From Prevotella melaninogenica (GTDB taxonomy: Bacteria > Bacteroidota > Bacteroidia > Bacteroidales > Bacteroidaceae): a DNA stretch of 64,000 bases. Shown in pieces: positions 4,601 to 31,428 of the stretch. The stretch lies in the NCBI RefSeq assembly GCF_018127925.1, contig NZ_CP072347.1, positions 250,501 through 314,500 on the forward strand, written 5' to 3'. Numbering within the stretch: the first letter of the stretch is position 1; each line of letters opens with the position of its first letter. Below the pieces are notes generated by a model that did not search any database, was not told the origin of the DNA, and saw only the letters and a program-made list of their open reading frames with translations. The position numbers and the translations under genes were made by a program.

Positions 4601-4701
4601 AGCATCAGTTCCCCCAAGCCTCTTCACAATGCTCAAATCGGGGGACGTTTTATTTTATAGCTATGGCAACACCTTTCATCATTACTAACAGACTATCCTA
4701 A
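4601..4701 (+). other. Leader with pseudoknot potential and 12-codon reading frame (copy 1)
   Basis: Downstream of the promoter, AGCAT (4601-4605) can pair with ATGCT (4629-4633), and TCCCCC in the enclosed loop (4610-4615) can pair with GGGGGA further on (4640-4645), the topology of an H-type pseudoknot. An ATG at 4663 then opens a frame of 12 codons (MATPFIITNRLS) ending at 4701. It may be the broken start of a longer gene, since another short open stretch follows in a different frame. An identical copy lies at 4996-5096. Similar ordering of stem, C-tract and G-tract is seen at 49498-49535. Confidence 0.4.
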
Positions 4702-5334: not shown

Positions 5335-5500
5335 GTGCTCTCTTGGCTTTGAAAAGACGCCTAATAGGCTTGCAAAACATGCCCTTTTGAGGTCTTACTA
5401 ACGCCCTTTTGAACCCTTACCAAGCACCTTTTGAAATCCATACTCACAACTATCTGATAACAAAACACTTACAAGGGTAAGAAAATCGCTTATTTTTTGG
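5335..5500 (-). repeat. GGGCGTTA intergenic element, copy 1
   Basis: This is the reverse orientation of a dispersed element whose core reads AAAAGGTGCTTAATTGGACT, then AAAAGGGCGTTAGTAAG, then AAAGGGCACCTTTTGCAA, then AAAGGGCGTTAATT. Here the core occupies about 5351-5435, followed by the tail GATAACAAAACACTTACAA. Seven other copies are in this window. Confidence 0.75.
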
Positions 5501-5559
5501 CTCTATTTTAAGTCTTAATGTTTGAGGATTTGTAAAGCATTTTTGTATATCAACCTCCC

Positions 5560-5868
5560 CCTACCCCTCCAAAGGAGGGGAGTTGCCTGCAAATAAAGAT
5601 TTGAAGAGTAAGCCTATTGTATATTAGCTGATTTGGTTTTAAACTCCCACTCCGTTAGACACTCCCCTCCTTCGAAGGGCTGGAAAAGGTCCCTGCTCTT
5701 GTTTTAACTCTCACCCCATTAGGCACTCCCCTCCTTTGGAGGGGTTGGGAGAGGTCCCTACAAAAAAGACAAAGTAACAGTTTTGCTTGTTACTCTGTCT
5801 TTTTCCTTTGGGGTATCCCACATTTCACGCCCCTCTCCTTTCGGAGAGGGGTTGGGGGTGAGGCTTTT
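5560..5868. repeat. Cluster of GC-rich palindromes
   Basis: Several imperfect CCCCTCC/GGAGGGG palindromes lie at about 5563-5592, 5655-5690, 5725-5758 and 5826-5868; the last overlaps the 3' end of the M60 peptidase gene. The stretch GGTATCCCACATTTCACGCC precedes the last one and recurs at 33670 beside another palindrome. Confidence 0.7.
5763..5804 (-). terminator. Probable bidirectional intrinsic terminator of the M60 cluster
   Basis: A 17-bp stem with one mismatch is formed by AAAAAGACAAAGTAACA (5763-5779) and TGTTACTCTGTCTTTTT (5788-5804). The A-rich left and T-rich right arms give a U-tract in either direction. It lies 64 bp past the stop of the M60 gene. Confidence 0.7.
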
Positions 5869-17200: not shown

Positions 17201-17358
17201 ACACGAACGGTAGCACCAATACATGGCTCACCTGTATCATCGAGGATGACACCCGCTACCGAGAACTGCTTTGCAGTACCATTATCTTGTGAATAGGCGT
17301 AGCCTGCATGAGTCAGCAGAGCTACCATAAGACACAAGACATATAAAGTTCTTCTCAT
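14242..17358 (-). CDS. SusC/RagA-family TonB-dependent outer-membrane transporter
   Basis: This is a 1038-residue SusC-type porin. After the signal peptide (to about residue 23) comes a carboxypeptidase-regulatory-like domain (FSVAGVILDDTGEPCIGATV, about 32-110), a TonB-box-like region (IDEVVVTG), the plug domain with the SusC signature VESISVLKDAAATAVYG, and a long beta-barrel ending in an aromatic residue (LQMYFRF). It imports the ligand held by the following SusD protein using TonB energy. It is the second gene of the operon, 32 bp after the IPT/NHL lipoprotein gene. No sigma/anti-sigma or hybrid two-component regulator is in the neighbourhood. Confidence 0.95.
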   Translation of the reverse strand: MRRTLYVLCLMVALLTHAGYAYSQDNGTAKQFSVAGVILDDTGEPCIGATVRVKNEPGVGTVSDLDGKFEIKVKPGATLLFEYVGMETVQRTILKDEPSLSVKFKVAKTNAIDEVVVTGLVSQKKVSVVGAVSTINMDELRTPGTSLVNMIGGRMPGVITMQISGEPGQNLSNFWVRGVSTFGAGAGALVLIDGIEGRLSDIDVDDVESISVLKDAAATAVYGVRGANGVVLVTTKRGSKEKIQVTARATVKLSQIKRLPEYLSSYDYARLANEARAMSGEADLYTPIQLDIIKNNLDPELYPNVNWIDQIMKKASLQENYYASARGGGDVAQYFVSVGYRHEGAAYKQKENQFHRPLSYDQLTYRANINMNLTKRSELYFGVDGSITNYTTPGGKNTNQVWEDVLQLNPLMFPVTYADGTLPTYGQNDLISPFAALNYQGYNSADNTRNMITLKFTHRFGGILKGLVGSVQAVNDRTSGFSERRFVKPDYYRATGRTATGDLIKTLRSKQQDMSYSSNNESWRKYYMEAKLDYNTSIGAHNLGALLFYYMEDTKGSKWGNGDALGIAAIPKRRQNVSGRLSWGYNSTYFVDANFGYTGSDIFPKGERFGFFPSIAVGWAPTSYKWVQKHLPFVNFFKIRGSYGLAGNDQIADKDSRFPYLTIINNHAGTTWGYTGQGIVEKQQGADNLKWEVAKKLNVGIDANFFNDAIKLTIDVFRDTRDHIFQDRVTLPEFAGMVTYPKSNVGRMHSFGSDGNISYFHKINKDMNFTVRANYTWSQNIVDYFEENKLAYDYQSVTGMPYGVLRGYISEGLFKDEADIRQSADQTAAFGVVRPGDIKYRDVNGDGVINKDDRVPLSYGNNVPRVMFGLGGEFNYKDFTVSLLFKGNTGVNYYRVGMGHDAGWIPFYNGEMGNVLKMVNNPKNRWIPSWYSGDPSTENPNAMFPRLSYGSNTNNSQLSTFWKQNGSFLRFQELNFRYVFRHRKWLRAAGLSALECDFVINNLFTIDSAKYFDPEQAWYNGAAYPIPTTYSLQMYFRF

Positions 17359-17390
17359 AGATCTATGTTTGTAGTATTATTAGGCAATAG

Positions 17391-18890
17391 CTATTTAATT
17401 GATAACTCTCGTATCACCTGATTCTTTGAATCGGCGACATAAACCGTACTTCCGTCAGCACTCACGGCGACTCCCGTCGGCCAATTAAACTTGGCTAACT
17501 CGACACCACCATCGTGGAAACCTGCACTCTGTGGTACACCAATTGGTGTAGTAACGCGTGCGTTCTTACCTTGAGTGGTATCAATCATACGAATACAGTG
17601 GTTACCAGAGTCGGCAATATAAAGCTTACCGTCCTTGGTGAAGGTCATCTGACGTGGATAACAGAACTTAGCATTCTTCAACGCTCCGTCTTCCCATCCC
17701 TTACCTTCAGTTACGTTTACAGTACCGAAAGAAGAAATACCTGCGTATGGCTCACCTGCGTAAGTCAGAGAATCCTTGTCTGACAACTGGTCAACGTCAA
17801 CATACCAAATCTGGTGTGCATCGGTGAATGAGATGAACAGACGGTTAGGCTGTGTAGGGCTGAAAGTACAGAAAGCATCTGAACCACCGCTTCCCTTAGG
17901 ACCATCCTTACCAACACGCTTCAAGAGCAACTCTGCCTTACGTGTCTTAGGATTAATACGAATGAGCTGACCCTTAAACATCACAGAGTAAATCATCTGG
18001 TCGTTCTTGTTAATCACGAAGCAATACTTCCAGTTGCTTTCGTCAAGGTTTGCATAACCGTTAGGATTGATGAACTGCTGCTTGTGAACGGCATAACCCT
18101 GAGCCTTCAACAGACTATAATACTTACGTCCGTTATCGTCTGGTACATATACACCCTCATAACCATCAAGTGTTGAGTAGGCTGGCGCATTAATTTTCTC
18201 GTCTTTTTTACTATTCACCTGAAGAATTGAAATCTGATCTCTCTTCAAGTCAGCTTTTAACACCATACCTCCGACATTCTCATTCTTCTCATCACGGCAT
18301 TCGATAAAAGCATCACTTCCATTAGCTTTAAAACTATCATCAAATCTATGCTGTACGATAAAGATATTGTTATCATTGTCAACACAAAGATAACCCGGAG
18401 CTGAAAGATTTGATGTCAACAGCTTGTCTATCTTTGTAGCGTGCGCATCACTTGTCTGTGTTCCAACAATTGTTGTAACAGCAGTCTGTGTGATATACTT
18501 AAAGTCGCGGCTACCAGCGCCCTTAATGGTATCAGCACCGTTAGCACGTGTCACCTCAAGTTTGATGTTACGCTTGTAAGTCAAACCAGCTGGCACATAG
18601 CAATAAAGCTTTTCGCCATTAGATGATACAAGACCACCACGGTGGCGACCTCCATCTTCATCAACATACCAAAGTGCAAGACCTGTGGTATCAGTACCAA
18701 AGTTCTTACCAGTGATAATCATTGGGGTGGCAATACCACCACTGTCGGGATAAAAGTCACTAATGACAATTGGTTGTGATGGGTCAAAAGAAGTACCTGC
18801 TGTGCCTCCTACCTCTTTATCAGAGCAGGAAACCCATGCGAGCGAGCCCATCAAGACCATCCACAAATAAGATTTGAAAAGTCTCTTCAT
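17391..18890 (-). CDS. IPT/TIG and NHL-repeat surface lipoprotein
   Basis: A 499-residue lipoprotein with Cys22 as the probable acylated residue (AWVSC-SDKEV). An IPT/TIG immunoglobulin-like domain (about 40-125; VISDFYPDSGG and MIITGKNFG) is followed by a beta-propeller made of NHL-type repeats (about 150-495; LYIADSGNHCIRMID and VYVADSKNQVIRELS). It is the first gene of this cluster. IPT/NHL lipoproteins accompany SusC/SusD systems and are believed to bind substrate at the cell surface. No catalytic motif is visible. Confidence 0.85.
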   Translation of the reverse strand: MKRLFKSYLWMVLMGSLAWVSCSDKEVGGTAGTSFDPSQPIVISDFYPDSGGIATPMIITGKNFGTDTTGLALWYVDEDGGRHRGGLVSSNGEKLYCYVPAGLTYKRNIKLEVTRANGADTIKGAGSRDFKYITQTAVTTIVGTQTSDAHATKIDKLLTSNLSAPGYLCVDNDNNIFIVQHRFDDSFKANGSDAFIECRDEKNENVGGMVLKADLKRDQISILQVNSKKDEKINAPAYSTLDGYEGVYVPDDNGRKYYSLLKAQGYAVHKQQFINPNGYANLDESNWKYCFVINKNDQMIYSVMFKGQLIRINPKTRKAELLLKRVGKDGPKGSGGSDAFCTFSPTQPNRLFISFTDAHQIWYVDVDQLSDKDSLTYAGEPYAGISSFGTVNVTEGKGWEDGALKNAKFCYPRQMTFTKDGKLYIADSGNHCIRMIDTTQGKNARVTTPIGVPQSAGFHDGGVELAKFNWPTGVAVSADGSTVYVADSKNQVIRELSIK

Positions 18891-18975
18891 AGAAACGGTT
18901 TAGTTAAATTGATTATGGTTTTTAATTAAATTTTATTCTTTAGGTAAATGTCAGTACACCCTCTTAGGGGACTGA

Positions 18976-18983
18976 CAAATTTA
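18976..18983 (-). promoter_or_regulatory. Candidate -7 box of the M60/SusCD cluster
   Basis: TAAATTTG on the minus strand matches TAnnTTTG and lies about 86 bp before the first gene. The nearest TTG upstream is 24 bp away, longer than the usual 19-21, so the assignment is tentative. Confidence 0.4.
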
Positions 18984-19117
18984 GAAAATAATTTTATATT
19001 ATGTACTCAATACAATTATTTATTAACTATTTTTAAATGTTAAAATGTTAAATGCGCTGAAACTTGTAAAAGAAAGAGGATTTCAATAATAAAAAAACAT
19101 AAACGAAACAAACGGCC

Positions 19118-19320
19118 TCACCCCCCAACCCCCTCTCCTACAGAGAGGGGGAGCGGCCCCACCCCCGACCCCTCCCCCATAGGGAGGGGAGTAGAATGCG
19201 CAATATCCCTATTGATTAGGAAAGTTTTTAAGTTATCTCCAAGCAAATTGTTTCCTACACTCCCCTCCTTTGGAGGGGCTGGGGGAGGTTTCAGGGATAT
19301 CGCGCATTAAATCCCAATCG
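19118..19320. repeat. GC-rich palindrome doublet (BIME-like)
   Basis: GC-rich palindromes at about 19118-19205 and 19258-19300 flank a spacer running from GCGCAATATCCCTATTGATT to AGCAAATTGTTTCC. The spacer ends match those at 1104-1320 and 50157-50226. The right palindrome is followed by the inverted motif GGATATCGCGCATT. Confidence 0.75.
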
Positions 19321-19369
19321 CCCCTTGCAATAATAACATTTTGTCCGTTTTTTTCAATTCTCCCTTTTC

Positions 19370-19500
19370 AATCTACGCTCTTTACGGTTTGAAAAGGGCG
19401 TTAAATACATTTGAAAAGGGCGTTACTTGAAGGTGAAGTAACGCCCTTTTGAAGTCTAATTAAGCACCTTTTCTTGCACAATATTATAACAAACTGAACT
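19370..19500 (-). repeat. GGGCGTTA intergenic element, copy 2
   Basis: Three GGGCGTTA/TAACGCCC motifs lie within 75 bp (19396, 19419 and 19438), followed by TAATTAAGCACCTTTT. This copy is rearranged compared with the others. The stem CTTGAAGGTGAAG sits between opposed motifs GGGCGTTA and TAACGCCC and could fold. Confidence 0.65.
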
Positions 19501-19716
19501 ACTGATAGTTACAGAGGCGAAGAATAAAGGCTTTATTTGTGTTTTTAAAGGGCTGACAACAGAGAATCATGTAAAGATAATTCAGAATCTTAAAAATGAA
19601 GACAGCATCAAAATCTTACTTTATTATTATTTGATGAATACTTAGCCACAAACAAAACGGAATTATAATAAAAGTTAAAAACATACCCCTCTACACTTTT
19701 GTATTATAATTAATTG
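19501..19716. other. AT-rich region before the export cassette
   Basis: There is no gene and no repeat here. The stretch is strongly AT-rich and marks the change in composition between the GC-richer cluster on the left and the export cassette on the right. Confidence 0.4.
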
Positions 19717-19724
19717 TATATTTG
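19717..19724 (+). promoter_or_regulatory. Candidate -7 box of the export cassette
   Basis: TATATTTG matches TAnnTTTG and lies 28 bp before the TolC-type gene. A TTTTG sits at 19697-19701, only 15 bp away, so the -33 element is weak or absent and an activator could be needed. Confidence 0.45.
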
Positions 19725-19751
19725 CACATAATATAACTATACCTAAAAATC

Positions 19752-21227
19752 GTGAAACTTAAAATCTATATTTATCTAACTTTTCATCTACTGTTTTTAT
19801 GTAGCAATAGAGTGTCTTCACAGACGCCTATTGTGAAGGGGAGCCTGTCATATGTCATAGATACGCTTTCGCTTACTTCAAATAATGCCCAGATAGAAAA
19901 GCTTAAGTATAAAAACGAACTGTTACGTTATGAAAACTATAAAAAGAGCTACTTACCCTCTATTAGTTTTGCGTTGTCTCCTATTGGCTTTAATCGCTCA
20001 TTAAGGCTTATGCAGGATCCTACAACTGGTAGTTATACGTATGTAAAAGATTACTCTAACAGCAGTAGTGTCGGACTTACTATACATCAAAATGTACCAT
20101 TTACAGGAGGTCAACTACAAGTTGGAAGTAGTTTAAACTATCTGAACGAATTTTCTTATCATCGTAAGAGTTACAGTACCTCACCTTATTATATTAGTTA
20201 TTCGCAAAATCTATGGGGCGGAAGAAAGCGTTATCTGCTGGAAAAGAAAATAGAAGAATCGAAGAACATGATTGCTATCAACAAGTTTTGTTCTAATATT
20301 GCGCAGATACAACAAAACATCTTAAGTCAATATATGGATGTTTTAGCAGCGAAAATGAGACTTAATCTTTCAAAGCAAACCGTTCTTAACAATGACACAT
20401 TATTAGATATTGCACGAATAAAACTGGATAATGGTCGTATTACGGAATATGATTACAAGCAAATAGAGTTACAATCTTTACGAAGTAAATTAGACTCTGA
20501 AGATGCAATCCAAAACTATCAACAACTTTACCACCAGCTATTGACAAGTATTGGTACAACACAGGAGATAGCTATAGTTTCGCCAGAATTTGACCTTCCA
20601 TTATCCATTGACTCTGTAGCAATATGGTACTATGTACGTAAGAACAATTCTTTTTATCAGCAGCAGGAACTTGAGAAACTTGAAGCAGAGCAAAATCTTT
20701 TCCTTGTTAAACTGGAAAATCGTTTTAATGCCAGTATTAGTCTTGGCTATGGAACAAACCAGTATGCTGAGCATTTAGTAGAAGCATACCATCATCCGAA
20801 TACTCGGCAATCTATTCAGGTGGGTATTCAGATCCCTATTTTCCAATGGGGTATTAACAAGAATAAAGTCAAAATGGCGGAGAATATATTTCAGTCTAAC
20901 CGCCTTGAACGTGAAACGAGACTAAGAAATTTTGAAAATCAGATTACAGAAAGAATTAATACCTATCGGTCGGCTGTCAAACTCTGGATGACAGCTAAAC
21001 AATCCTACGAACTATCACAGGATCAATATAAACTTGCCTTGAAGAAATTCTCGTTAGGTAGAATTTCAGACTATGAACTATATATTGCCCAAAACAATCA
21101 ATTTACCTCATTATCACAATATGCTTCTGCTATCAGACAAGCATACACTAACTACTATATCATAAGGGGTATGACTTTATATGACTTCAAAAAAGAAAGA
21201 GACTTAATTGAGAGTCTCGTTAAATAA
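19752..21227 (+). CDS. TolC-family outer-membrane efflux protein
   Basis: This is a 491-residue protein with a signal peptide (cleaved near VSS-QTP) and the TolC pattern of two related halves rich in long helices: NIAQIQQNILSQYMDVLAAK, an AR.KLDNGRITEYDY-type segment, and a second repeat with IQVGIQIPIFQWG and KKFSLGRISDYELYIAQNN. It would form the outer-membrane exit duct of a type I secretion machine together with the HlyD and ABC proteins encoded downstream in the same cassette. The start is GTG at 19752, the first start in frame before the signal peptide. The peptidase-like cargo gene starts 24 bp after its stop. Base composition is clearly more AT-rich than the SusC/SusD genes to its left. 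Confidence 0.9.
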   Translation: MKLKIYIYLTFHLLFLCSNRVSSQTPIVKGSLSYVIDTLSLTSNNAQIEKLKYKNELLRYENYKKSYLPSISFALSPIGFNRSLRLMQDPTTGSYTYVKDYSNSSSVGLTIHQNVPFTGGQLQVGSSLNYLNEFSYHRKSYSTSPYYISYSQNLWGGRKRYLLEKKIEESKNMIAINKFCSNIAQIQQNILSQYMDVLAAKMRLNLSKQTVLNNDTLLDIARIKLDNGRITEYDYKQIELQSLRSKLDSEDAIQNYQQLYHQLLTSIGTTQEIAIVSPEFDLPLSIDSVAIWYYVRKNNSFYQQQELEKLEAEQNLFLVKLENRFNASISLGYGTNQYAEHLVEAYHHPNTRQSIQVGIQIPIFQWGINKNKVKMAENIFQSNRLERETRLRNFENQITERINTYRSAVKLWMTAKQSYELSQDQYKLALKKFSLGRISDYELYIAQNNQFTSLSQYASAIRQAYTNYYIIRGMTLYDFKKERDLIESLVK

Positions 21228-21251
21228 TTATTAATTAAAAACATTTTTATT

Positions 21252-22058
21252 ATGAGAAAGTTAACAAAAGCTAGTCTTTCTGAATTAGCAGAGTCAAAGG
21301 AAATCATTTCGTTTCTTGAACAAAAAAGTTATGTAGGTGGAGGAACAGGAGAAAGTGGTGACCCATTTTCTTATCAGGAGTTTTTATCTCTGATAAATTC
21401 TAATCAATGGGCAGGTGGTTATGTTCAAGGTGTAAGTGAAATTAACGGTCAAATTACTTACAACGGGGGTTCTCTTTCTTATATTGGTTCAGATCTTGCT
21501 AAATATGGAGGCGGAACCCAGATTCCTGAAGCTGAAGGGTATAGTGGTGGAACTATGTATGATGGTGGTTCACATATATATGATGAGCCTAAGAGAGACC
21601 CTCTTTCGTTTGGGAAAAATGCCAATAAAAGCACAGTTTCAAATTATACAAGAGACTGTTTGTATAGAGTAATGAAAGCAACTGGAAACGATAATCTTTT
21701 TGTCACCAGTACTATACGTTCTGCTCATGACCAAGCACGCGTAATGTATGAAAATATTCTAAGAAAGGGTGTTCAATATCAAAAAAATAAATACACTGAT
21801 ATTGGAGACCAAGTTATAGATGTCTATAATGCAAAAATGAGTAGAGAGCAGAATATAGCTGCTATGGAAAGTAAAATTAAAGAATTAGGTCCAGAAAGAG
21901 TGTCTCACCATTGTGGGGATCATACTAAAGTAAATGTTATGGATGTTGCTATAAGTTCTGTTAATAACAGAACCTCCTTTGAAAATGCTTTGAAAGCAAA
22001 TGGCATTAAATGTATTATAGAGAATGATTGCTACCACTTAGAAATAAAACAAAAATAA
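21252..22058 (+). CDS. Double-glycine-leader secreted protein with M15-type peptidase domain (candidate antibacterial toxin)
   Basis: This is a 268-residue protein with no Sec signal. The first 30 residues look like a double-glycine leader (MRKLTKASLSELAESKE, ending YVGG), to be cut after Gly30 by the C39 domain of the exporter encoded downstream. Residues 31-110 are Gly-rich and include DPFSYQEF and QWAGGYVQG, resembling a linker I associate with other Bacteroidota double-glycine cargo. Residues about 120-268 fit an M15 (VanX / L-Ala-D-Glu peptidase) fold: Arg156 in TSTIRSAHDQ, zinc ligands His224 and Asp231 spaced H-x6-D, and Asp259 plus His262 in a D-x-x-H motif near the end, the arrangement of phage T5-type endopeptidases. 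Cys136, 221, 254 and 260 could form disulfides. The inferred role is an exported peptidoglycan-cleaving toxin; the alternative is a self-directed wall enzyme. Confidence 0.78.
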   Translation: MRKLTKASLSELAESKEIISFLEQKSYVGGGTGESGDPFSYQEFLSLINSNQWAGGYVQGVSEINGQITYNGGSLSYIGSDLAKYGGGTQIPEAEGYSGGTMYDGGSHIYDEPKRDPLSFGKNANKSTVSNYTRDCLYRVMKATGNDNLFVTSTIRSAHDQARVMYENILRKGVQYQKNKYTDIGDQVIDVYNAKMSREQNIAAMESKIKELGPERVSHHCGDHTKVNVMDVAISSVNNRTSFENALKANGIKCIIENDCYHLEIKQK

Positions 22059-22064
22059 AATCTT

Positions 22065-22601
22065 ATGAAAAAAATTATATTTCTATTTTTTTTACTTTAT
22101 GGCTTAAATAGTTTTTCTCAAGATTTAAAAGGACTGTGTGGGGTTTATAAATATTCACACTCTGATAAATCCCAAAGTTCACTTGAAAATCAATACATAG
22201 TACTTGAAAAGAATGTAGATGGTAAGATTCATGGTAGATTTTATGCTACTACAGATGAATTTATTGATGCACGAGAAGGATACTCTCCAGGCTATTTTGT
22301 TACACCTATGGATAGTCTTCTCTTAATACATGATAGCATTATTTTCACTATAAATGTGTCATCTAAGGACCTTTTCAAGAAACCAATTCCACTCAAAATA
22401 AAAACTGCAAAAGATGCTCATAATCTTAAGTTTCCATTATGGAAAAGCGGATGGATAGGAGATATTTTACATCGTAAGTATGTAGGATATTTAGAAAATA
22501 ATATGATTTTATTTTATAACACATACCTTAAAAAGAAATTAAAATTTTTAAAATATAACACAACTCGTCACAAACCCTCAAAGATAAACCGACAATTTTA
22601 A
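22065..22601 (+). CDS. Small exported protein, candidate immunity factor
   Basis: A 178-residue protein I do not recognise. A Sec signal peptide (KKIIFLFFLLYGLNSFS, cleaved before QDLKG) sends it to the periplasm. The mature part is beta-rich with many Lys, Tyr and Phe residues and a basic C-terminus. Only 6 bp separate it from the stop of the M15-type peptidase gene, so the two are almost certainly translated from one message. A periplasmic partner encoded directly after a peptidoglycan-targeting toxin is the classical position of an immunity protein; this is inference from context. It could instead be a chaperone or an accessory effector. Confidence 0.6.
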   Translation: MKKIIFLFFLLYGLNSFSQDLKGLCGVYKYSHSDKSQSSLENQYIVLEKNVDGKIHGRFYATTDEFIDAREGYSPGYFVTPMDSLLLIHDSIIFTINVSSKDLFKKPIPLKIKTAKDAHNLKFPLWKSGWIGDILHRKYVGYLENNMILFYNTYLKKKLKFLKYNTTRHKPSKINRQF

Positions 22602-22673
22602 GTATAACTTAAAGTGTCAAAAGTATAATACTAATAGTTGTGGCATTGATGTCATTAGAGAAAATCTCTATTG

Positions 22674-22723
22674 GTACATTTTTACTAGACTAAGAATATT
22701 TCCTTAGTTTCAATTAAATGTAC
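22674..22723. other. Nested inverted repeat after the toxin/immunity pair
   Basis: GTACATTT (22674-22681) pairs with AAATGTAC (22716-22723), enclosing CTAAG (22690-22694) and CTTAG (22703-22707). With the stronger hairpin that follows, it separates the cargo pair from the transport genes. Confidence 0.4.
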
Positions 22724-22782
22724 AGATAACATATTGTAGAAAGGTAGAGCATATTGTCTACATCCTTTGCACTATAATCCTA

Positions 22783-22838
22783 AAAAATTATATGGAGATA
22801 TGGAAATAAAATAGGTTTCCATACTTCATATAATTTTT
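22783..22838 (+). terminator. Long AT-rich hairpin between cargo pair and glycosyltransferase gene
   Basis: AAAAATTATATG (22783-22794) pairs with CATATAATTTTT (22827-22838), and inside it TGGAAA pairs with TTTCCA. It ends in a T-run 29 bp before the glycosyltransferase ATG. It could attenuate read-through, giving more cargo and immunity message than transporter message, or act as a processing site. Confidence 0.5.
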
Positions 22839-22867
22839 GAATAACAATAAATAATTAATCATATTCA

Positions 22868-24628
22868 ATGAAAATAGCATTTCTCTCGAACAAAAATCCC
22901 AATGACTTTCACCTATGGTCTGGAACAACACGAAATATTTTCCAAGCCCTATCACTGCAGCATGAAGTGGTATGGATTGGAAGTAACTTGGTAGATGGTG
23001 GTGTTTGGCATCATCGTTTCAAAGGAAAGAGTGAAAGATATTACCCAGAGAATTATTCAAAGGATTTTGCAAGAATTCTGTCCACAGAAATTAAGAATGG
23101 TCGATTTGATGTGGTTGTAGCTTGTGATTACTATTTTGCATCTGACCTACAAATAAATATCCCTATCGTATATATCAGTGATGCGACGTTTGACCAATTC
23201 AAAGATTATCTTAATATTAAAGAAGGCTACTATCATGGTCTTGCAGAAGCAACAGAACAACGGTTGATAGACAATGTTGATGTTCTGTTATATTGTTCAG
23301 AATGGGTAAAAAACAATGCAATAGAGCATTATCATGCTGATGCACGTAAGATAAACGTCGTAGAATTCGGAGCTAACATCCCTGCACCCTTAAAGTATAA
23401 GATAGAGTCACCAACGGACGTTTGCCATCTGGTATTTATTGGGAGAAATTGGGAAAAGAAAGGAGGAGACAAAGCTCTTGCGGCTTACAGACACATGAAG
23501 GAAAAAGGATTTCCTTGTACGCTGACAATTATAGGCTCTACCCCACCTACAAAAATAGAAGAGGACGAAGGGCTCACCATCATTCCTTTTTTGGACAAAT
23601 CAAAGGAAGAAGACTTGAAAAAACTTGATGAAATACTGTATAATGCGCATTTCCTCATTTTGCCAACCACTTTTGATGCTTATGGAATTGTTTTCTGTGA
23701 AGCATCAGCTTATGGAGTACCAAGCATAGCTGCAAATGTGGGTGGTGTGAGTCAACCTGTGAGGGAAGGAAAGAATGGTTATTTACTTCCACCTTCTGCT
23801 TCTGGTAAGGATTATGCAGAGAAAATCATCTCTATTTTCAGTAATCAAAAACAATATACCGCACTGCGTAAATCAAGCAGAAAAGAATATGAAAAAAGAC
23901 TGAATTGGGATGTATGGAAAAGAAAAGTTGATATCATCTTTAGAAAAGCAATAAAACAAAAAAAGAGAGAAGTAGATTCCTCTACAGATTTTTATCTCCC
24001 TGTGTATGCCATCAACATGAAAAGTCGCCCTGACAGACGTAAGCACTTAGAGAAACAGTTCAGAGGGAAAAAAGAATTCGCTTTACATATCATTGATGCC
24101 GTTGAAGATACAAATGGAAGATTAGGACTATGGAAAAGCATGGTTAAGGTTGTAAAAACTGCTATAAGTAACGGTGATGATATTATGATTATCTGTGAGG
24201 ATGACCATACTTTTACGCAGGACTATTCCAGAGATTACTTGTTCGCCAATATTATTGAAGCAGAAGAACAACACGTAGAATTATTGTCAGGAGGTATTGG
24301 AGGATTTGGACATGCCGTACCTGTATCTGCCAATAGATATTGGGTAGACTGGTTTTGGTGCACACAGTTCATCGTTATTTTCAAACCTCTGTTTAATAAG
24401 ATCTTGGAATACGATTTTCAGGATAATGACACAGCAGATGGTGTACTATCTGTCATTGCTAAAAACAAGATGACTGTTTATCCTTTTCTGTCTATACAGA
24501 CTGATTTTGGCTATTCAGATGTAACAGCCAGTAATGATAGATTTAAGGGACTAATAAGTCAACATTTTAAAGAGACGGATAAAAGATTGGCAATGGTTCA
24601 TAACATATCACATCATTTTAACGACTGA
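22868..24628 (+). CDS. Two-domain glycosyltransferase (GT4 fused to a GT25-like domain)
   Basis: This 586-residue protein has no signal peptide or membrane span, so it acts in the cytoplasm. The N-terminal part (about 1-370) is a GT-B fold GT4 enzyme: CSEWVKNNAIEHY, LVFIGRNWEKKGGDKAL, and the nucleotide-sugar site FCEASAYGVPSIAANVGG. The C-terminal part (about 378-586) resembles GT25 enzymes: VYAINMKSRPDRRKHLEKQF at its start, then an acidic metal-site candidate IICEDDHTF. The pair could add two sugars in sequence. Its place between the cargo pair and the exporter genes, 8 bp before hlyD, suggests that it modifies the exported protein or a linked surface glycan; no acceptor can be read from sequence. 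The second Glu of the classical GT4 EX7E motif is not obvious. Confidence 0.8.
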   Translation: MKIAFLSNKNPNDFHLWSGTTRNIFQALSLQHEVVWIGSNLVDGGVWHHRFKGKSERYYPENYSKDFARILSTEIKNGRFDVVVACDYYFASDLQINIPIVYISDATFDQFKDYLNIKEGYYHGLAEATEQRLIDNVDVLLYCSEWVKNNAIEHYHADARKINVVEFGANIPAPLKYKIESPTDVCHLVFIGRNWEKKGGDKALAAYRHMKEKGFPCTLTIIGSTPPTKIEEDEGLTIIPFLDKSKEEDLKKLDEILYNAHFLILPTTFDAYGIVFCEASAYGVPSIAANVGGVSQPVREGKNGYLLPPSASGKDYAEKIISIFSNQKQYTALRKSSRKEYEKRLNWDVWKRKVDIIFRKAIKQKKREVDSSTDFYLPVYAINMKSRPDRRKHLEKQFRGKKEFALHIIDAVEDTNGRLGLWKSMVKVVKTAISNGDDIMIICEDDHTFTQDYSRDYLFANIIEAEEQHVELLSGGIGGFGHAVPVSANRYWVDWFWCTQFIVIFKPLFNKILEYDFQDNDTADGVLSVIAKNKMTVYPFLSIQTDFGYSDVTASNDRFKGLISQHFKETDKRLAMVHNISHHFND

Positions 24629-24636
24629 TATACAAT

Positions 24637-25947
24637 ATGGAAAAAGAAACAGTGCAAGAGCACACTGAATTAGAACAGAGATCAGAAGAAATACAGGCTA
24701 TCATCGACCGTATGCCTACTTATTGGACCAAATGGGTTGCGCTTTGTGTGAGCGTACTTATGGGTGTTGTTATTCTGTTAGGTTTTTTAATCAAATATCC
24801 AGACACAGTAGATGGAGAGATAACAGTTACAGCCTCCAATGCTCCTATACGATTAGTTTCTAAAGATAATGGTCGTATTATATTGTTACATTCCAGCCAT
24901 TCGAAAGTAAAAAGAGGAGAGGTTGTCGCCTATATAGATAATGGGGCTAACTATTGGCATTTATTACGTTTGGAGAAAATCATAGATAAAATGTCTAATA
25001 CTGCATTAACCTCTGTAGTCATGCCAGATACATTAGTACTTGGTGAGTTAAGTACTGCCTATAATTCCTTAAAACTTGCCCACTCACAGTATCAACGACT
25101 GTTAGCATCCGACCTTTATGCAACGATGCGCCAAAGTATTCAAGAGCAAATAGCCTCTGACAAGAAAGTTATTACTAATATAGATTCGGAAATAGAAATA
25201 AAGAAAGAGGTACTTGATAACTCTAAAACACAGTTGAAGAAAGACAGTATCTTACTTGCTGCTAAAGGAATGAGTGAGATAGAGTACCAGAACCAACATA
25301 CAAATCACCAAAATCTTCAAGCATCAAACATTGGGCTTCAGAGTAATCGGCAGATGAAGATGTCAGAAGTGAATAGGAACCAGACCGAAGTACAACGTAT
25401 AAAGTTGGAGGAGACAGAAACAAGGGAAAAACTTTATTCTGAGTTATTAACCAAAAAGAATGAGTTGGCAAATGCTATTCTGCTTTGGAAAGAACGCTAT
25501 CTAATAACTGCACCAATTGATGGAGAATTGGAATATTCTGGTTTTTGGCGTAATAATAATTTTGTGCAAGCTGGTCAAGAACTGTTCTCTGTTATTCCAC
25601 ATAAGAATAGCGTAATAGGAGAAGTTCAGATACCTTCCTTTGGTGCAGGAAAAGTAAAAGTAGGGCAACGCGCAAATGTAAAAATTAACAATTTCCCATA
25701 CGATGAGTATGGGTTGCTACGAGGAAAGGTAACATCTGTTTCGCGGATTACAAATAAATTAAAAACGAAGAATGGTGATATAGACGCCTACTCTGTTATT
25801 ATTTCTTTTCCAGAGGGGTTAATAACAAATTTTGGACAGCAACTGCCATTAGACTTTGAGTCGAAAGGAGTTGTGGAAATTATTACTAAACCTAAGAGGC
25901 TTATAGAAAGATTGTTTGATAATTTATATGCAAAAGGAGAAAAATAA
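24637..25947 (+). CDS. HlyD-family membrane fusion protein
   Basis: A 436-residue periplasmic adaptor of a type I secretion system. It has a short cytoplasmic N-terminus, one membrane span (about 31-52, WVALCVSVLMGVVILLGFLI), a lipoyl-like segment (GRIILLHSSHSKVKRGEVVAYI), a long coiled-coil hairpin (about 130-280), the second lipoyl half (LITAPIDGELEYSGFW) and a beta-barrel domain with GQRANVKINNFPYDEYG. It links the inner-membrane ABC exporter to the TolC-type duct. Its stop is 3 bp before the ABC gene start and its start 8 bp after the glycosyltransferase stop, so the three genes form one transcription unit. Confidence 0.92.
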   Translation: MEKETVQEHTELEQRSEEIQAIIDRMPTYWTKWVALCVSVLMGVVILLGFLIKYPDTVDGEITVTASNAPIRLVSKDNGRIILLHSSHSKVKRGEVVAYIDNGANYWHLLRLEKIIDKMSNTALTSVVMPDTLVLGELSTAYNSLKLAHSQYQRLLASDLYATMRQSIQEQIASDKKVITNIDSEIEIKKEVLDNSKTQLKKDSILLAAKGMSEIEYQNQHTNHQNLQASNIGLQSNRQMKMSEVNRNQTEVQRIKLEETETREKLYSELLTKKNELANAILLWKERYLITAPIDGELEYSGFWRNNNFVQAGQELFSVIPHKNSVIGEVQIPSFGAGKVKVGQRANVKINNFPYDEYGLLRGKVTSVSRITNKLKTKNGDIDAYSVIISFPEGLITNFGQQLPLDFESKGVVEIITKPKRLIERLFDNLYAKGEK

Positions 25948-25950
25948 AAT

Positions 25951-28143
25951 ATGTTGTTAAATAGATTTCCAGTAGAATACCAAATGGATTCACAAGACTG
26001 TGGTCCTGCATGTTTGAAAATTATTGCTAAACATTTTGGAAAGTTCTACTCTTTGCAGTCTCTCAGAGATAAATGCGGTATTACCAAAGAAGGCGTCTCA
26101 TTGTTAGACTTAAGTACAGGTGCAGAAAGCATAGGATTACGCACATTAGCAATAAAATGTACTATTGATGATGTGGTAAATAGCGTCCCTTTCCCTGCTA
26201 TTATTTTTTGGAAAGATAGCCATTTTGTAGTTGTATATCATGCTAACAAGAAATATATTTGGGTTTCTGATCCTGCAAAAGGTCGTATTAAGTATACTCA
26301 TGAAGAATTTAAGAAAGGTTGGTATCAAAAAGGAGCTAAGCAAGGTGTATTGTTGGCTATAGAACCCACTGCAGAATTTAAAGACAGTAAAGCAGAAAGA
26401 GAGCAAAGAAAGAATACTTTTTCGAGTATTCTAAAATATTTTACTCCTTATCAGCGTAACTTTACACTGATTTTTGTAATCATGCTCCTTGTAACAGCTT
26501 TACAAGGCATGTTGCCATTTATTTCTAAAGCAGTTATCGATGTAGGAATAAAGACCTCAGATGTAAATTTCATCAATATGGTCTTAATTGGAAACATATC
26601 TATCCTGCTTAGTGTGATGATATTCAATGTAATACGTGACTGGATATTGATGCATATTACAGCAAGAGTAAATATTGCACTTATTTCAGATTATCTTATT
26701 AAACTGATGAAGCTTCCTGTTACTTTCTTTGAGAACAAACTCCTAGGTGACATTCTTCAAAGAGCACAGGATCATGAGCGAATACGCAGCTTTATCATGA
26801 ATAATTCATTATCTTTGATATTTTCAATATTGACATTTGTTGTATTCTCTATCATCTTACTGATATACAATGCTATCATTTTCTATATCTTTATATCTGG
26901 CTCAATTTTGTATGCTGGTTGGGTATTGTTATTTCTCAATATTCGCAAAAAAATGGACTGGGAATATTTTGAGTTACTTTCTAAAAATCAGAGTTACTGG
27001 GTTGAGACGGTATCTTCCATCCAAGATATAAAAATTTATAATTATGAGAAACATAGACGCTGGAAATGGGAAGAGATACAAGCACGTTTGTATCATGTAA
27101 ACAAGCGCGTATTAGCTATTACAAATGCACAGAATCTTGGAGCACAATTCATTGAGAGTATTAAAAATATGGGTATTGTATTCTTCTGTGCCACAGCAGT
27201 AATTAAAGGAGAGATTACGTTTGGTGTGATGATTTCGACCCAATTCATAATAGGTATGCTCAATGGTCCCTTAGTTCAATTCATCAATTTTATTGTATCT
27301 GCACAATATGCAAAAATAAGTTTCCTCCGAATTAATGAGATCAAACAATTAGAAGATGAAGAAGAATTATTGTCAGTTGGTAGTACTACAATTCTGCCAG
27401 AGAACAAATCACTTATATTGGACAACGTAAATTTCCAGTATACAGCCAACTCACCATTAGTACTACATAATATTTATTTGCACATTCCAGAGAATAAAGT
27501 GACCGCTATTGTAGGAGGTAGTGGTAGTGGTAAATCAACCTTATTAAAACTTTTAGTCCGTTTATATAAACCTAGCTATGGAGATATAAAAATGGATAAA
27601 ATGAATGTAAATGCTATTAATCTACGACAATGGCGTAGTATGTGTGGTGTAGTAATGCAGGATGGAAAAATTTTCAGTGATACAATATTAAACAATATTG
27701 TCTTAGATGACGAACATATTGATTATGAACAACTACGGAAAGTTTGTAGAATAGCACAAATAGAAGATGAAATAAATGCAATGCCAAAGGGGTTTGAAAC
27801 CAATATCGGTGAGAATGGTCGAGGTTTAAGTGGAGGACAAAAGCAAAGACTTTTGATAGCTCGTGCTCTTTATCGTAATCCACAATACCTTTTTCTTGAT
27901 GAAGCCACAAATGCATTAGACACTATCAATGAAAAGAAGATAGTTGAAGCTTTAAATAATGCATTCCTTCAGCGTACTGTTATTGTTGTTGCACATAGAT
28001 TAAGCACGATTAGAAATGCTGACCAAATTGTGGTTTTAGACAAAGGGTATATTGTTGAAGTTGGTAATCATGATTCATTAATGGAAAGAAAAGGTCATTA
28101 TTTTCAAATGATTGCATCCCAAATGCCTTCATTGGATACATAA
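25951..28143 (+). CDS. Peptidase-containing ABC exporter (C39 domain, PCAT)
   Basis: This 730-residue half-transporter is both leader peptidase and pump. The N-terminal C39 domain (1-130) has the catalytic Cys17 in SQDCGPAC, His91 in SHFVVVY and Asp107 in VSDPAKG, with Gln11 or Gln15 available for the oxyanion hole; all catalytic residues are present, so it should cleave double-glycine leaders. A six-span membrane region (about 165-450) follows, then the ATPase: Walker A GGSGSGKST (522-530), signature LSGGQKQR (from 626), Walker B YLFLDEAT and switch His in AHRLST. The only double-glycine leader seen in the window is on the M15-type protein, which makes that protein the probable cargo. It is the last gene of the cassette, and no strong terminator follows directly. 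Confidence 0.94.
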   Translation: MLLNRFPVEYQMDSQDCGPACLKIIAKHFGKFYSLQSLRDKCGITKEGVSLLDLSTGAESIGLRTLAIKCTIDDVVNSVPFPAIIFWKDSHFVVVYHANKKYIWVSDPAKGRIKYTHEEFKKGWYQKGAKQGVLLAIEPTAEFKDSKAEREQRKNTFSSILKYFTPYQRNFTLIFVIMLLVTALQGMLPFISKAVIDVGIKTSDVNFINMVLIGNISILLSVMIFNVIRDWILMHITARVNIALISDYLIKLMKLPVTFFENKLLGDILQRAQDHERIRSFIMNNSLSLIFSILTFVVFSIILLIYNAIIFYIFISGSILYAGWVLLFLNIRKKMDWEYFELLSKNQSYWVETVSSIQDIKIYNYEKHRRWKWEEIQARLYHVNKRVLAITNAQNLGAQFIESIKNMGIVFFCATAVIKGEITFGVMISTQFIIGMLNGPLVQFINFIVSAQYAKISFLRINEIKQLEDEEELLSVGSTTILPENKSLILDNVNFQYTANSPLVLHNIYLHIPENKVTAIVGGSGSGKSTLLKLLVRLYKPSYGDIKMDKMNVNAINLRQWRSMCGVVMQDGKIFSDTILNNIVLDDEHIDYEQLRKVCRIAQIEDEINAMPKGFETNIGENGRGLSGGQKQRLLIARALYRNPQYLFLDEATNALDTINEKKIVEALNNAFLQRTVIVVAHRLSTIRNADQIVVLDKGYIVEVGNHDSLMERKGHYFQMIASQMPSLDT

Positions 28144-28247
28144 ACTTATTCCACATATAGGTTCCTAAGAGTAAAGTTCCTAAATGGACTGATAAATACA
28201 ATTGGGCTCTGGCATAAAAACACATACAGTGCTTTATCAATGCTCTT

Positions 28248-28306
28248 AAACCCAATTCGGTCATTAGAGCCTAAACATATTGTGGTCTAATGACCGATTT
28301 GAGTTT
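28248..28306. repeat. 19-bp inverted repeat after the export cassette
   Basis: AAACCCAATTCGGTCATTA (28248-28266) and TAATGACCGATTTGAGTTT (28288-28306) are complementary at 17 of 19 positions. A single arm, TAATGACCGATTAGGGTTT, recurs at 61829-61847, also preceded by TATTGTGGT. It could be a transcript end or a remnant of an element; no T-run follows. Confidence 0.55.
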
Positions 28307-28344
28307 ATATACAAAGCGTTTATCCCAGAGAATTATCAGGAATC

Positions 28345-28430
28345 TGTACGCTACACCTCCGTCGCTCTTTGTGCCGTCGGCACCTCCGTGATATAGCCTT
28401 AACCTCCGTCTCCTCCGTCCCTCCATGTGC
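28345..28430. repeat. GTGCCGTCGGCAC-centred repeat, copy 1
   Basis: The stretch combines CCTCCGTCGCTCTTTG, the near-palindrome GTGCCGTCGGCAC and CCTCCGT motifs. Its complement (CAGAGGTGCCGACGGCACAA, GCAGCGTACAGATTCCTAAT) appears at about 48460-48520, and a diverged copy lies at 48565-48665. Confidence 0.65.
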
Positions 28431-28511
28431 CTTATTATCTAACCATTTTAGTTTATCACTTCATATTTGGGAATAACCAATATCCTTTGATTCGCAAGCC
28501 CAAAAGCCGCT

Positions 28512-28740
28512 GCAAACCTTTGAAAAATCATTACATATCCTCATCCAAATCCCCTTCAAAATCACGAAAAAAGACATCTAAAAAGCGACTCTGTAACCAA
28601 CAGAGAATCAAGTGGTTATAAAGTAGCAAAGTAAAAGGTGCTTAATTGGACTTGAAAAGGGCGTTAGTAAGGGGCTTAAAGGGCACCTTTTGCAAACCAA
28701 AAGGGCGTTAATTGAAAGCCAATTAACGCCCTTCTGAATG
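28512..28740 (+). repeat. GGGCGTTA intergenic element, copy 3 (full length)
   Basis: This copy has both parts of the element: an upstream part (CACGAAAAAAGACATCTAAA, then AGCGACTCTGTAACCAACAG and GGTTATAAAGTAGCAAA) shared nearly base for base with the copy at 33258-33460, and the core with four GGGCGTTA/GGGCACC motifs. It ends in a perfect 14-bp stem, AAGGGCGTTAATTG / CAATTAACGCCCTT, around a 5-base loop, which could terminate transcription arriving from either side. Confidence 0.8.
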
Positions 28741-28742
28741 AT

Positions 28743-29113
28743 AGTGGACAAGTGGACAAGTTAGACAAGTAGACAAGTTAGACGAGTGGACAAGTTAGAC
28801 AAGTAGACAAGTAAACAAGTTGCTTGTTAACTCCTCTACTCGTCTAACTTGTTCACCCGTCAACTTACCATGTTACTTTGTCTTTCTTCGCAATCAACTT
28901 GTCTACTCGTCAACTTGTTCACCCGTCAACTTACCATGTTACTTTGTCTTTCTTCGCAATCAACTTGTCTACTCGTCAACTTGTTCACCCGTCAACTTAC
29001 CATGTTACTTTGTCTTTCTTCGCAATCAACTTGTCTACTCGCCAACTCGTTCACTCATCAACTTACCATACAAGCAACTTGTTTACTCGTCAACTTGTCT
29101 ACTTGTTAACTCC
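28743..29113. repeat. 8-bp TYGTNNAC array with 66-bp higher-order repeat
   Basis: Octamers in the GTNNACRA sense (28743-28825) turn into the opposite sense (28835-29113). Within the second half a 66-bp unit containing TGTTACTTTGTCTTTCTTCG repeats three times (that motif starts at 28871, 28937 and 29003). Because 66 is divisible by three, long open frames appear in it; they encode only repetitive peptides and are not genes. Confidence 0.85.
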
Positions 29114-29121
29114 TCTACCAC

Positions 29122-31428
29122 TCACTTCACGAGCATCTTCTTACCATTACGGATAACAACACCCTTATGACTCTTGCTAACTGTCTTGCCTGAGAGATCG
29201 TAAGTGGTAGCTGATTCATTCTGGAAGATAAGAGCGTTGATGCCAGTAGAAGTCTTCTTAACCTCTGTAGGAACGAAGGTAGAGCCAGCATCCTTACCAC
29301 CAGTCCAGTAAGCGAGGTTGCCGTCAGCACGATAGTTCAAGCCGAAGCCCTCTGGATTACAGATATAGAAACCTTCATCATCATTTGGGCTTATTGTCAC
29401 AGTCCAGTCGCTGGTGTACCCTGCAGGTAGGTTGTCAGCAGGCAGAAGGGTAGCGTAAGTGTTACCGCCAGCCTTAGCTGAACCCTTTGGAGAAGCCGAT
29501 GCGAGGACCATTGTAGGACCCATTGCCTTGTTGATGAGGCGGAAACCGCTGTAAGGATTACCTGTCAATGCCCAAAGAGCATAATCAGTAGTGATGTAAG
29601 TCTCGTCAATGAAGTAAACGTTAGGTGTATAGTTTCCTGACGAAACCCATCTTGGCTGGTTGCTCACCTTGAGGTTATACCAAGTAGTGTCGGCTGGTGT
29701 AGCCACCTTCATTGGGGCTGTCCATGTAGCGGTAATACGTACTGTAGCTGGCAGACTTGTGATGGTCTCCTTGTCAGCTGTCAGTTCAACATAGTCTCTG
29801 CTAAGTCCTTCAGGAATCGTCACAGCACCAGTCTTCGCACCATTGACAACGGTTGAATAGACAAATTCATTGTTGAAGTAAACCTCGTAGGTCAAAGCTG
29901 TCTTCGCATCAATGAAGATACCCTCAAGTGACACATCACCATCAATCATCTCAGCAGGGAGGGTGAAGGTTCCATCAGCATTGAAACGCTCACGTGGAAT
30001 CAGCTCGTCAACATACTGATAGGTGCCATGGCTGATACTATCGCCAGTGAGGTTGTAGCCGTGTCGCACCTTCAGACCGCTGAAGTTAAAGCCATGTTCA
30101 GGCTTCATCTTGATAGTGTAAGGCTTACCGAATGGGATAGAGATACCGTTCAGCTCAGTACCATCTTCTGCAACAACCTTACCATTGAGTGCACCTTGAT
30201 AAATCTTCACATTGTCTCCATGAACATTCAGGCGCACATCGATGGCACCACCACCATTGTTAAGGATGTGGTTGTTGTTCTCAATGCTACCTCCTGCGTC
30301 TGCAGAGTTCCAATCCACTTTGTAACGCATACGATAGAAACCGTGCTGAAGGTTGCTTGGAAGGGTAAATTCAGGCATAACGAGGGTGTTACGACCATTA
30401 CCAGAAATCTCTGTTCCTGCGCTGTTGAAGCCAGAATTCTCGTCCTCTCCACTGAGGAAAGAGTAAGCCAACAACTCGTTACCAGCGTTGGGAACAATCT
30501 GACCGCCCTCTACCTTTGGCTCAAAACGGCCGTTGTTGTTCAAGTCAAGATAAACATAGCTGTGCATCCAGATACCCTTGTACTGAACCGCTGGGTTGAG
30601 TGTCTCACCCGGTTTAGCCAAGAACGCCTGCTTGCTGAGGCAGGTGTAAGCTGGAGTTGATGTGGTAATGTCACCATAGACACTGAATGTCTGGTCGCCA
30701 AGGCTGATACCCTTGAGTCCACGGTCACTACGTGAGCATTTCGCATCCTTGCTATAATTCATCGGATAGTCCTCACGATTGGTTGTTGTGAAAGCCTCGT
30801 TGTTTACGACGATATTGTCGATATAAGCAAGGAAATCATCTTTCATACCGTTGGTGTCCTCACAATCGACAACAACAACAAGACTATGGATTTCAATGCC
30901 ACCTGCTCCCTTAACTGGGAAAACAGCATCTACCCACTTATTTGGCTCTATCTCTCTTGTTGAAAGCTCCCAGAACTGCTCTGTGTCTGTGCTCTGACCC
31001 TTACGATCCGTACGCTTTCCGAGTCCGATAAGCATCGTACGTCCTGCCTTTGGCTTGTGAATCATTACGTGTACGTACTTTGTTTCTTTGGTCAAAGCAA
31101 ATGGCTGCTTAAGGTCGATGCGCGCACCGAAAGTGTTTGAGCCAAAGCGTGAACGCTGGAAGCCCAACACATTGTCAGAAGCATTTGGTGTAGCCTTCAG
31201 TATCTCGTCGTAGTTTTTATCGATATTGCTTACTACTTGCACGTTTCCTTCCAGTGCAGCAGCTTGCTTGTTTTGGCTGCGGAAAGGCGACTTCAGCCAA
31301 GTATCGTAGACACCTAACGCCTTATAGTTCTGATTTTCAAAATCTATTCTAACCTCTTCTGTGGTCTGTGCATGAAGTAAAGAGGTGCAGAACAACAAAC
31401 CACAGGTAGCTAATATATTCTTTTTCAT
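29122..31428 (-). CDS. Large secreted protein of unknown function, T9SS-like tail, fucosidase-linked
   Basis: A protein of about 768 residues from the ATG at 31428 (MKKNILATCG); an upstream ATG at 31440 would add four residues. The signal peptide ends near LLHA-Q. The first domain (about 25-215) is a beta-sandwich resembling carbohydrate-binding modules; next comes a GEVED-like stretch (YVYLDLNNNGRFEPKVEGG) and further beta domains. The last residues (TYDLSGKTVSKSHKGVVIRNGKKMLVK region) match a short T9SS sorting tail. I recognise no catalytic motif. It follows the GH29 fucosidase gene by about 20 bp and is almost certainly co-transcribed, so a role in binding or processing fucosylated glycans is inferred. 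The stop lies at the border of the octamer array. Confidence 0.75.
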   Translation of the reverse strand: MKKNILATCGLLFCTSLLHAQTTEEVRIDFENQNYKALGVYDTWLKSPFRSQNKQAAALEGNVQVVSNIDKNYDEILKATPNASDNVLGFQRSRFGSNTFGARIDLKQPFALTKETKYVHVMIHKPKAGRTMLIGLGKRTDRKGQSTDTEQFWELSTREIEPNKWVDAVFPVKGAGGIEIHSLVVVVDCEDTNGMKDDFLAYIDNIVVNNEAFTTTNREDYPMNYSKDAKCSRSDRGLKGISLGDQTFSVYGDITTSTPAYTCLSKQAFLAKPGETLNPAVQYKGIWMHSYVYLDLNNNGRFEPKVEGGQIVPNAGNELLAYSFLSGEDENSGFNSAGTEISGNGRNTLVMPEFTLPSNLQHGFYRMRYKVDWNSADAGGSIENNNHILNNGGGAIDVRLNVHGDNVKIYQGALNGKVVAEDGTELNGISIPFGKPYTIKMKPEHGFNFSGLKVRHGYNLTGDSISHGTYQYVDELIPRERFNADGTFTLPAEMIDGDVSLEGIFIDAKTALTYEVYFNNEFVYSTVVNGAKTGAVTIPEGLSRDYVELTADKETITSLPATVRITATWTAPMKVATPADTTWYNLKVSNQPRWVSSGNYTPNVYFIDETYITTDYALWALTGNPYSGFRLINKAMGPTMVLASASPKGSAKAGGNTYATLLPADNLPAGYTSDWTVTISPNDDEGFYICNPEGFGLNYRADGNLAYWTGGKDAGSTFVPTEVKKTSTGINALIFQNESATTYDLSGKTVSKSHKGVVIRNGKKMLVK

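Follow-up and report, generated by a model that had tools for sequence, protein, structure and literature searches.

A six-gene block with its own export machine

The window analysed here is a 64,000-nucleotide stretch of the Prevotella melaninogenica genome (contig NZ_CP072347.1, positions 250,501 to 314,500), and our subject is a block of six genes at positions 19752-28143, which is probably a toxin-immunity cassette of the polymorphic kind, equipped with a type I (C39) exporter of its own and an M15-like wall-cutting toxin. The original prediction had placed here, on one strand, genes for a TolC channel, a double-glycine-leader protein, a small exported protein, a double glycosyltransferase, an HlyD protein and a C39-peptidase ATP-binding cassette (ABC) exporter. 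This layout was confirmed: all six open reading frames (ORFs) lie on the plus strand, spaced by 24, 6, 266, 8 and 3 nt, and the one long gap holds an inverted repeat. The features are listed below, the leader, module and domain being parts of the toxin gene; pLDDT is the predicted local distance difference test score of the AlphaFold2 model.

19752..21227, plus strand: TolC-family outer membrane channel, GTG start (Pfam OEP/TolC, 1.2e-32)
21252..22058, plus strand: toxin of 268 aa, made of a double-glycine leader, a linker and an M15-like C-terminal domain
21252..21341, plus strand: double-glycine leader (aa 1-30), with the C39 cut predicted to fall after Gly30; aligned to the leaders of 20 other cargos
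21342..21587, plus strand: aa 31-112, holding the post-leader module (DPFSYQEF...W-GGYV) and a Gly-rich linker; fold modelled with low confidence
21588..22055, plus strand: C-terminal toxin domain (aa 113-268), 33-row alignment, model pLDDT 95-98
22065..22601, plus strand: probable immunity protein of 178 aa; signal peptide of Sec type recognised by eye; homologues also behind this toxin domain elsewhere
22602..22867, no strand: 266-nt gap with inverted repeat 22783-22797 / 22824-22838
22868..24628, plus strand: glycosyltransferase of 586 aa, GT4 domain fused to a GT25-like domain (Pfam)
24637..25947, plus strand: HlyD-type membrane fusion protein (Pfam HlyD_3, 6.4e-13)
25951..28143, plus strand: C39-peptidase ABC exporter (Pfam Peptidase_C39, 4.1e-36, with ABC membrane and ATPase domains)

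Pfam matches at these values bore out the proposed identities of the channel, the fusion protein and the exporter, and also the double glycosyltransferase, where a GT group 1 (GT4) match of 4.3e-20 and a GT25 match of 4.1e-5, the latter sitting at the Pfam cut-off, fall within one protein. The exporter has its C39 catalytic residues (DCGPAC, H91 and D107) and its ATPase motifs (Walker A, LSGGQ and LDEAT), so that the block holds what defines type I export by a peptidase-containing ABC transporter (PCAT): a Cys-His-Asp C39 peptidase, ABC domains, and HlyD and TolC partners. The strong domain matches and the homologues described below rule out chance ORFs.

The six genes have a G+C content of 28-37%, against 44-46% in the 10-kb flanks, and the block therefore looks acquired; the host genome comprises 3.36 Mb in 2 contigs. 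The inverted repeat in the 266-nt gap has 15-nt arms that are 93% complementary and 26 nt apart, and the gap also contains two weaker repeats and no clear terminator. A consensus search of the plus strand at 17000-30000 gave no Bacteroidetes-type promoter, and a PADLOC scan returned nothing credible.

One leader and one type of exporter serve many cargos

The double-glycine leader proposed for the cargo was found in the sequence (MRKLTKASLSELAESKEIISFLEQKSYVGG, ending in EQKSYVGG), with a predicted cut after Gly30 and a further Gly immediately behind it. The PCAT machines that export bacteriocins and class II microcins (colicin V, for example) share with the cassette the C39-ABC protein, HlyD, TolC and a leader ending in double glycine. 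Their cargo is a small peptide, whereas the cassette encodes a roughly 25-kDa enzyme-like protein together with a Sec-exported partner; class II bacteriocin and microcin products are under about 10 kDa, and the 268-aa cargo does not belong among such small peptides.

Searching for the exporter at E below 1e-240, we found it in 10 of 299 family genomes (11 exporters) and in 4 of 284 order genomes, two of them new. With that of G102 (79% identity to the window exporter) added, the window exporter and 13 others at 64-85% identity to it make up a group of 14, and a tree separates this group with support of 100/100 from six exporters linked to short peptides. The other parts of the machine are recognisable as well: HlyD proteins in loci of this group are 32-63% identical to that of the window, and the window TolC shares 49% identity with its counterpart at G911, the locus that has the nearest exporter. 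A leader cargo was found in 13 of the 14 group loci and, at E below 0.1, in none of seven peptide-exporter stretches. A model of the leader matched 6 of 299 genomes in the genus search and 6 of 393 in the order search, the host genome being counted in both; in the genus, real cargos were present in three genomes (G000, G102 and G278). Three weak leader matches from the genus search were rejected as cargos of the window kind, since they proved to be a broken leader remnant (G117), a post-leader module without leader (G029) and, by eye, an unrelated lipoprotein (G186).

The cargos behind this leader differ widely. Nineteen of the 21 aligned leader cargos are 165-333 aa long (the other two have 88 and 96 aa), and beyond residue 90 only three pairs among them are alike. 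When the 17 other leader cargos were scanned against Pfam, six matched a family: NlpC/P60 (5e-11, in G278), CHAP (6e-5, below the cut-off), C39_2 twice (once above and once below the cut-off), Toxin-JAB1 (22 bits, cut-off 21) and DUF6973 (76 bits). Several cargos also have HExxH-like motifs and appear zincin-like by eye. One trafficking part is hence joined to many unrelated C-terminal domains, as is characteristic of polymorphic toxins: in these Bacteroidales loci the exporter and the leader are kept and the toxin and its partner protein change, as in the polymorphic toxins of rearrangement hotspot (RHS) proteins, contact-dependent inhibition (CDI) and the type VI secretion system (T6SS).

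Several observations in this survey count against the interpretation offered above. Most of the leader cargos that the model found had served to train it; the G894 cargo, which lay outside the training set (E 6e-5), has no double glycine, and that of G796 has Gly-Met in its place. The stretch examined at the G812 locus holds no cargo, and in the genome of G278, which is 99% complete, two leader toxins are present but we could find no C39 domain. No convincing Pfam family was assigned to 11 of the 17 cargos scanned, and an M15-like domain occurs with this type of leader and exporter in the window only (1 of 21 leader cargos). Homologous exporter loci do exist, but none of the others that we read repeats the six genes in exactly this order; cargos with the same leader do lie beside exporters of the same type elsewhere, and the M15-like domain was seen to do so only here. 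Leader and exporter occur rarely and in scattered genomes, as would suit mobile conflict genes, which also means that the samples are small.

Some of these loci are of interest in their own right. In G278 (L016:7403-19120), the double-glycine toxins are a papain-like protein (by eye) and an NlpC/P60 protein, with exported neighbours. In L130 (G603), positions 65-7233 hold LanC-like, GT4 and GT2 genes followed by three copies of the same leader; two of the copies, each with an exported protein behind it, have C-termini that are zincin-like by eye, with GT2 fragments in between, an array that looks like toxin turnover by recombination. The G608 cargo (L158) is a 56-aa fragment at an edge. The host genome has a second C39 exporter, belonging to the peptide-exporter group (L135, G000:C1:143000-162900), near which lie a short HlyD and a truncated further C39 domain.

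The module that follows the leader is common to a subset of the leader cargos, and in the model of the window cargo residues 31-110 reach a mean pLDDT of 34-61 per block of ten. The nearest relative, in L034, has the post-leader module without the double glycine, and a search of that genome for the exporter at E 1e-80 found none. At L034:7563-8435 and L081:9971-10858, an NPYT-x-EEF...WPGGYV-x-MGYV module heads toxins without a double-glycine leader, whose C-termini are M15-like or papain-like, as another trafficking variant.

The C-terminal domain has an M15-like motif order

A scan of an 84,980-species collection recovered the toxin domain in 44 further loci, distributed over Bacteroidota, Acidobacteriota, Proteobacteria, Chloroflexi, Actinomycetota, Planctomycetota and other phyla. 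We aligned the window cargo with homologues from 32 of these loci, leaving out L029, L046, L050, L059, L062-L066, L068, L069 and L071, which are near-identical, broken, cut off or divergent. Invariant in the resulting 33 rows are Q161, M165, N168, Y181, G185, S218, H220, D231, F243, H262 and E264, and S153 and R156 are nearly so. The motifs thus run R-x4-Q, S-x-H, D, H-x-E, which is the motif order of M15 peptidases. The AlphaFold2 model, with pLDDT 95-98 from residue 121 onwards, has a strand (149-153) running into the TSTIR motif, a helix (158-172) with Q161, a strand (227-233) with D231 and a strand (260-266) with H262, and this order of elements is presumably compatible with the M15/LAS fold. 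The order of the motifs and that of the elements in the model are the grounds on which we favour an M15-like domain.

Database comparisons speak against this assignment. The cargo had no credible match in Pfam, NCBIfam, PHROGs or the PDB sequences; none of the 33 rows matched an M15 family model in Pfam, and a search of PDB sequences with the toxin-domain profile gave chance matches only, to a translation factor and PapB (best E 0.061). Profile comparison with hhalign aligned motif 1 only, both with 16 Bacteroidota M15_4 proteins (33 columns, E 0.0076; one weak M15_4 match, L110, was excluded from this set) and with 7 M15_4 proteins picked for their R..Q motif (49 columns, E 5e-4). The controls, reversed or shuffled, came out at E 0.12 or worse and five unrelated profiles at 0.27 or worse. 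Under a forced global alignment to M15_4 the later motifs still failed to line up (E 0.14), and the comparison with Bacteroidota M15_3 was no better than its shuffle (E 0.18). The motifs and the element order are compatible with the proposed wall peptidase of M15 type, which no M15 family model bears out.

It is accordingly possible, if rather unlikely, that the cassette is what we propose and that the C-terminal domain is another zinc-dependent or a non-enzymatic toxin, directed at the wall or at proteins. The lack of a family match and the confinement of the M15_4 alignments to motif 1 would fit such a toxin, as would the H220-D231 spacing of 11, longer than the M15 spacing of 7, and the acid shortly before the last His, which is absent from some rows of the alignment. 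Against it stand the order and invariance of R-x4-Q, S-x-H, D and H-x-E, the order of strands and helix in the model, and the fusions of the domain to SLT, LysM and glucosaminidase domains described in the next section.

The toxin domain travels with other carriers and with a probable immunity protein

The C-terminal domain is a polymorphic toxin 'warhead', and it also appears on other delivery platforms. In Prevotella, RHS/YD-type proteins end in it and have a small lipoprotein behind them, and two T6SS islands, in Scandinavium and Rahnella, hold it in the neighbourhood of vgrG and of PAAR or TssA; such a spread over RHS-type and T6SS carriers is typical of polymorphic toxin domains. Pfam families in 24 chosen carriers included SLT transglycosylase (4), LysM (2), glucosaminidase (1), phage lysozyme (1) and RHS repeat (1), and the fusions to SLT, LysM, glucosaminidase and phage-lysozyme domains point to peptidoglycan as the target. 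Viral contigs gave three pattern matches, none of them a relative of the toxin domain, and phage records a single weak match (E 1e-5). In four Acidobacteriota metagenome-assembled genomes (MAGs; L028, L029, L031 and L033) the domain stands alone in open frames of 169-183 codons, with no evident signal peptide or exported neighbour.

The original prediction had listed the 178-aa product simply as a small exported protein, and missed its probable role. The protein is present, its signal peptide being recognised by eye, and from its genomic linkage it is best read as the probable immunity protein. Among the 78 downstream ORFs compared, homologues of it follow the same toxin domain in L032 (a Draconibacterium MAG; E 1e-27, 40% identity, 22 nt after the domain), in L034 (E 1e-11, 332 nt after) and in L053 (E 3e-9), with a weak match in L013 (0.002). 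The carriers that have this partner are an RHS-like fragment (by eye), Gly-rich proteins and the double-glycine cargo; since these carriers differ, the toxin domain and the 178-aa protein move together, and the linkage of an immunity gene to a toxin domain across carriers, here seen as linkage only, is typical of polymorphic toxins. Two further homologues are not beside this toxin domain: one ends the leader-toxin array of G278 (L016) as an apparent orphan (E 1.5e-23) and the other lies in the exporter locus of G894 (L154; E 3e-12). Other branches of the toxin domain have other partner families. More generally, in 40 of the 44 loci (excluding L050, L051, L064 and L071) the ORF following the toxin-domain gene has a hydrophobic N-terminus in 28 cases by a crude heuristic that accepts doubtful ORFs; the 12 genes with no such neighbour weaken the case for a general immunity partner.

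A housekeeping or self-directed wall enzyme, such as an autolysin or a growth or release factor for the producer's own envelope, would likewise have a wall-directed domain, and an excerpt of PMC11798529 links C39-associated peptides of Neisseria to autolysis; we nevertheless hold it highly improbable, because the sporadic presence, low G+C and differing C-termini, as well as the linked immunity homologues and the apparent orphan copy in G278, fit conflict.

Glycosyltransferases are typical of the exporter group

The glycosyltransferase had been thought to make the layout unusual, which did not hold: glycosyltransferase genes occur in 12 of the 14 group loci, so they are typical and not odd, as against 3 of the 7 peptide-exporter stretches. 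Relatives of the GT4-GT25 fusion are nearly whole in G894 and G871, cut off in G908, split into two genes in G911 and reduced to the GT4 half in G796, and a further one lies beside a peptide exporter (L080). LanC-like genes, whose matches fall below Pfam's cut-off, were found in 8 of the 14 loci and 2 of the 7 stretches, and not among the six window genes. That both kinds of gene also accompany peptide exporters counts against our interpretation; class IIb microcins use a glycosyltransferase too.

These genes would suit a cluster for a ribosomally synthesised and post-translationally modified peptide (RiPP), the post-leader region then yielding a modified peptide as the real product, and the enzyme domain being incidental. 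This is very doubtful in view of the single predicted cut site, the length of 19 of the 21 leader cargos, the six with a family match, the weakness of the LanC-like matches, and the window cassette itself, which has no small precursor.

A proposed mechanism and its place among known systems

For the toxin-immunity cassette, we propose the following course of events. The toxin would be made with the double-glycine leader seen in its sequence; the C39 domain of the exporter, by analogy with known C39 exporters, would cut after Gly30, and the ABC-HlyD-TolC channel would carry the protein through inner and outer membrane in a single step. In the periplasm of competitors the C-terminal domain may then act as an M15-like zinc peptidase on peptidoglycan stem peptides, as suggested by its conserved residues resembling metal ligands, the element order of the model and the fusion partners. 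The Sec-exported 178-aa protein would neutralise the toxin in the periplasm of the producer and its kin, a role to which its co-occurrence with the toxin domain points, and the glycosyltransferase might conceivably modify the cargo before export.

We can also imagine a bolder and improbable extension: a widespread Bacteroidales toxin route in which glycosyltransferases (and LanC-like enzymes) decorate the DPYT-x-EF...W-GGYV module, the sugar tag being taken up by the SusCD/TonB-type glycan importers of kin, so that a whole wall-cutting enzyme would cross the outer membrane without contact.

Published systems, compared here through excerpts of the papers cited, share some of these features. Polymorphic toxins as described by Zhang et al. 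2012 (PMC3482391) have, like the cassette, a conserved N-terminal trafficking part, swapped C-terminal toxins and an adjacent immunity gene. At least eight routes are given there, T2, T5, T6, T7, PVC, PrsW and MuF being named in the excerpt, in which C39 features as a relative of a toxin domain and not as an export route; C39 type I export may therefore be a route beyond those named. Type I export has been suggested for RTX-fused Lipocone toxins (PMC12419801), which resemble the cassette in this respect and differ from it in having RTX repeats and no double-glycine leader. The nearest precedent for several double-glycine-leader proteins around a C39 peptidase is an island (PMC6393860) that, unlike the cassette, is archaeal and for which bacteriocin-like toxin and quorum sensing were both left open.

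Among T6SS peptidoglycan effectors, Tae17 (PMC11796386) and the WHIX effectors, a few of them M15-like (PMC12135965), have wall-cutting domains, some with transglycosylase or LysM parts, as do the carriers of our toxin domain, and many neighbours of WHIX effectors have signal peptides, like the 178-aa protein; they are, however, injected, with neither a leader nor a C39 exporter. Bacteroidales RiPP clusters (PMC10352776) have in common with the cassette group the exporter, fusion protein, channel, double-glycine leaders, glycosyltransferases and LanC-like genes, but their cargo is precursor peptides, with no enzyme-toxin cargo or immunity protein in the excerpt consulted; one cluster has long predicted cores and no transporter. 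We found no C39-exported polymorphic enzyme toxin of Bacteroidales in the open-access literature, consulted in excerpts, and an earlier description elsewhere is possible.

If our interpretation is right, a whole repertoire of enzyme toxins leaves Bacteroidales cells through bacteriocin-type machines and can be traced by leader and exporter, one more route stands beside those named for polymorphic toxins, and the LanC-like genes and glycosyltransferases frequently met beside such exporters may be given a role. It also raises the question of how a roughly 25-kDa enzyme crosses the outer membrane of a Gram-negative target, and gives an immunity partner to a wall-toxin domain which occurs in several phyla and which none of the Pfam, NCBIfam and PHROGs models covered here.

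Other features of the window

Just downstream of the cassette, at 28835-29069, lies a 66-nt tandem repeat (3.5 copies, 97%). At 4421-5295, a 395-nt unit repeated 2.2 times (98%) contains two abiF RNA matches of equal score (4610-4646 and 5005-5041); of the ORFs of at least 90 aa at 3500-6500, none is obviously an abi gene. The minus strand at 5868-9059 encodes a large secreted-looking protein with an HEFGH zinc motif, judged by eye to be possibly an M60-like metallopeptidase.

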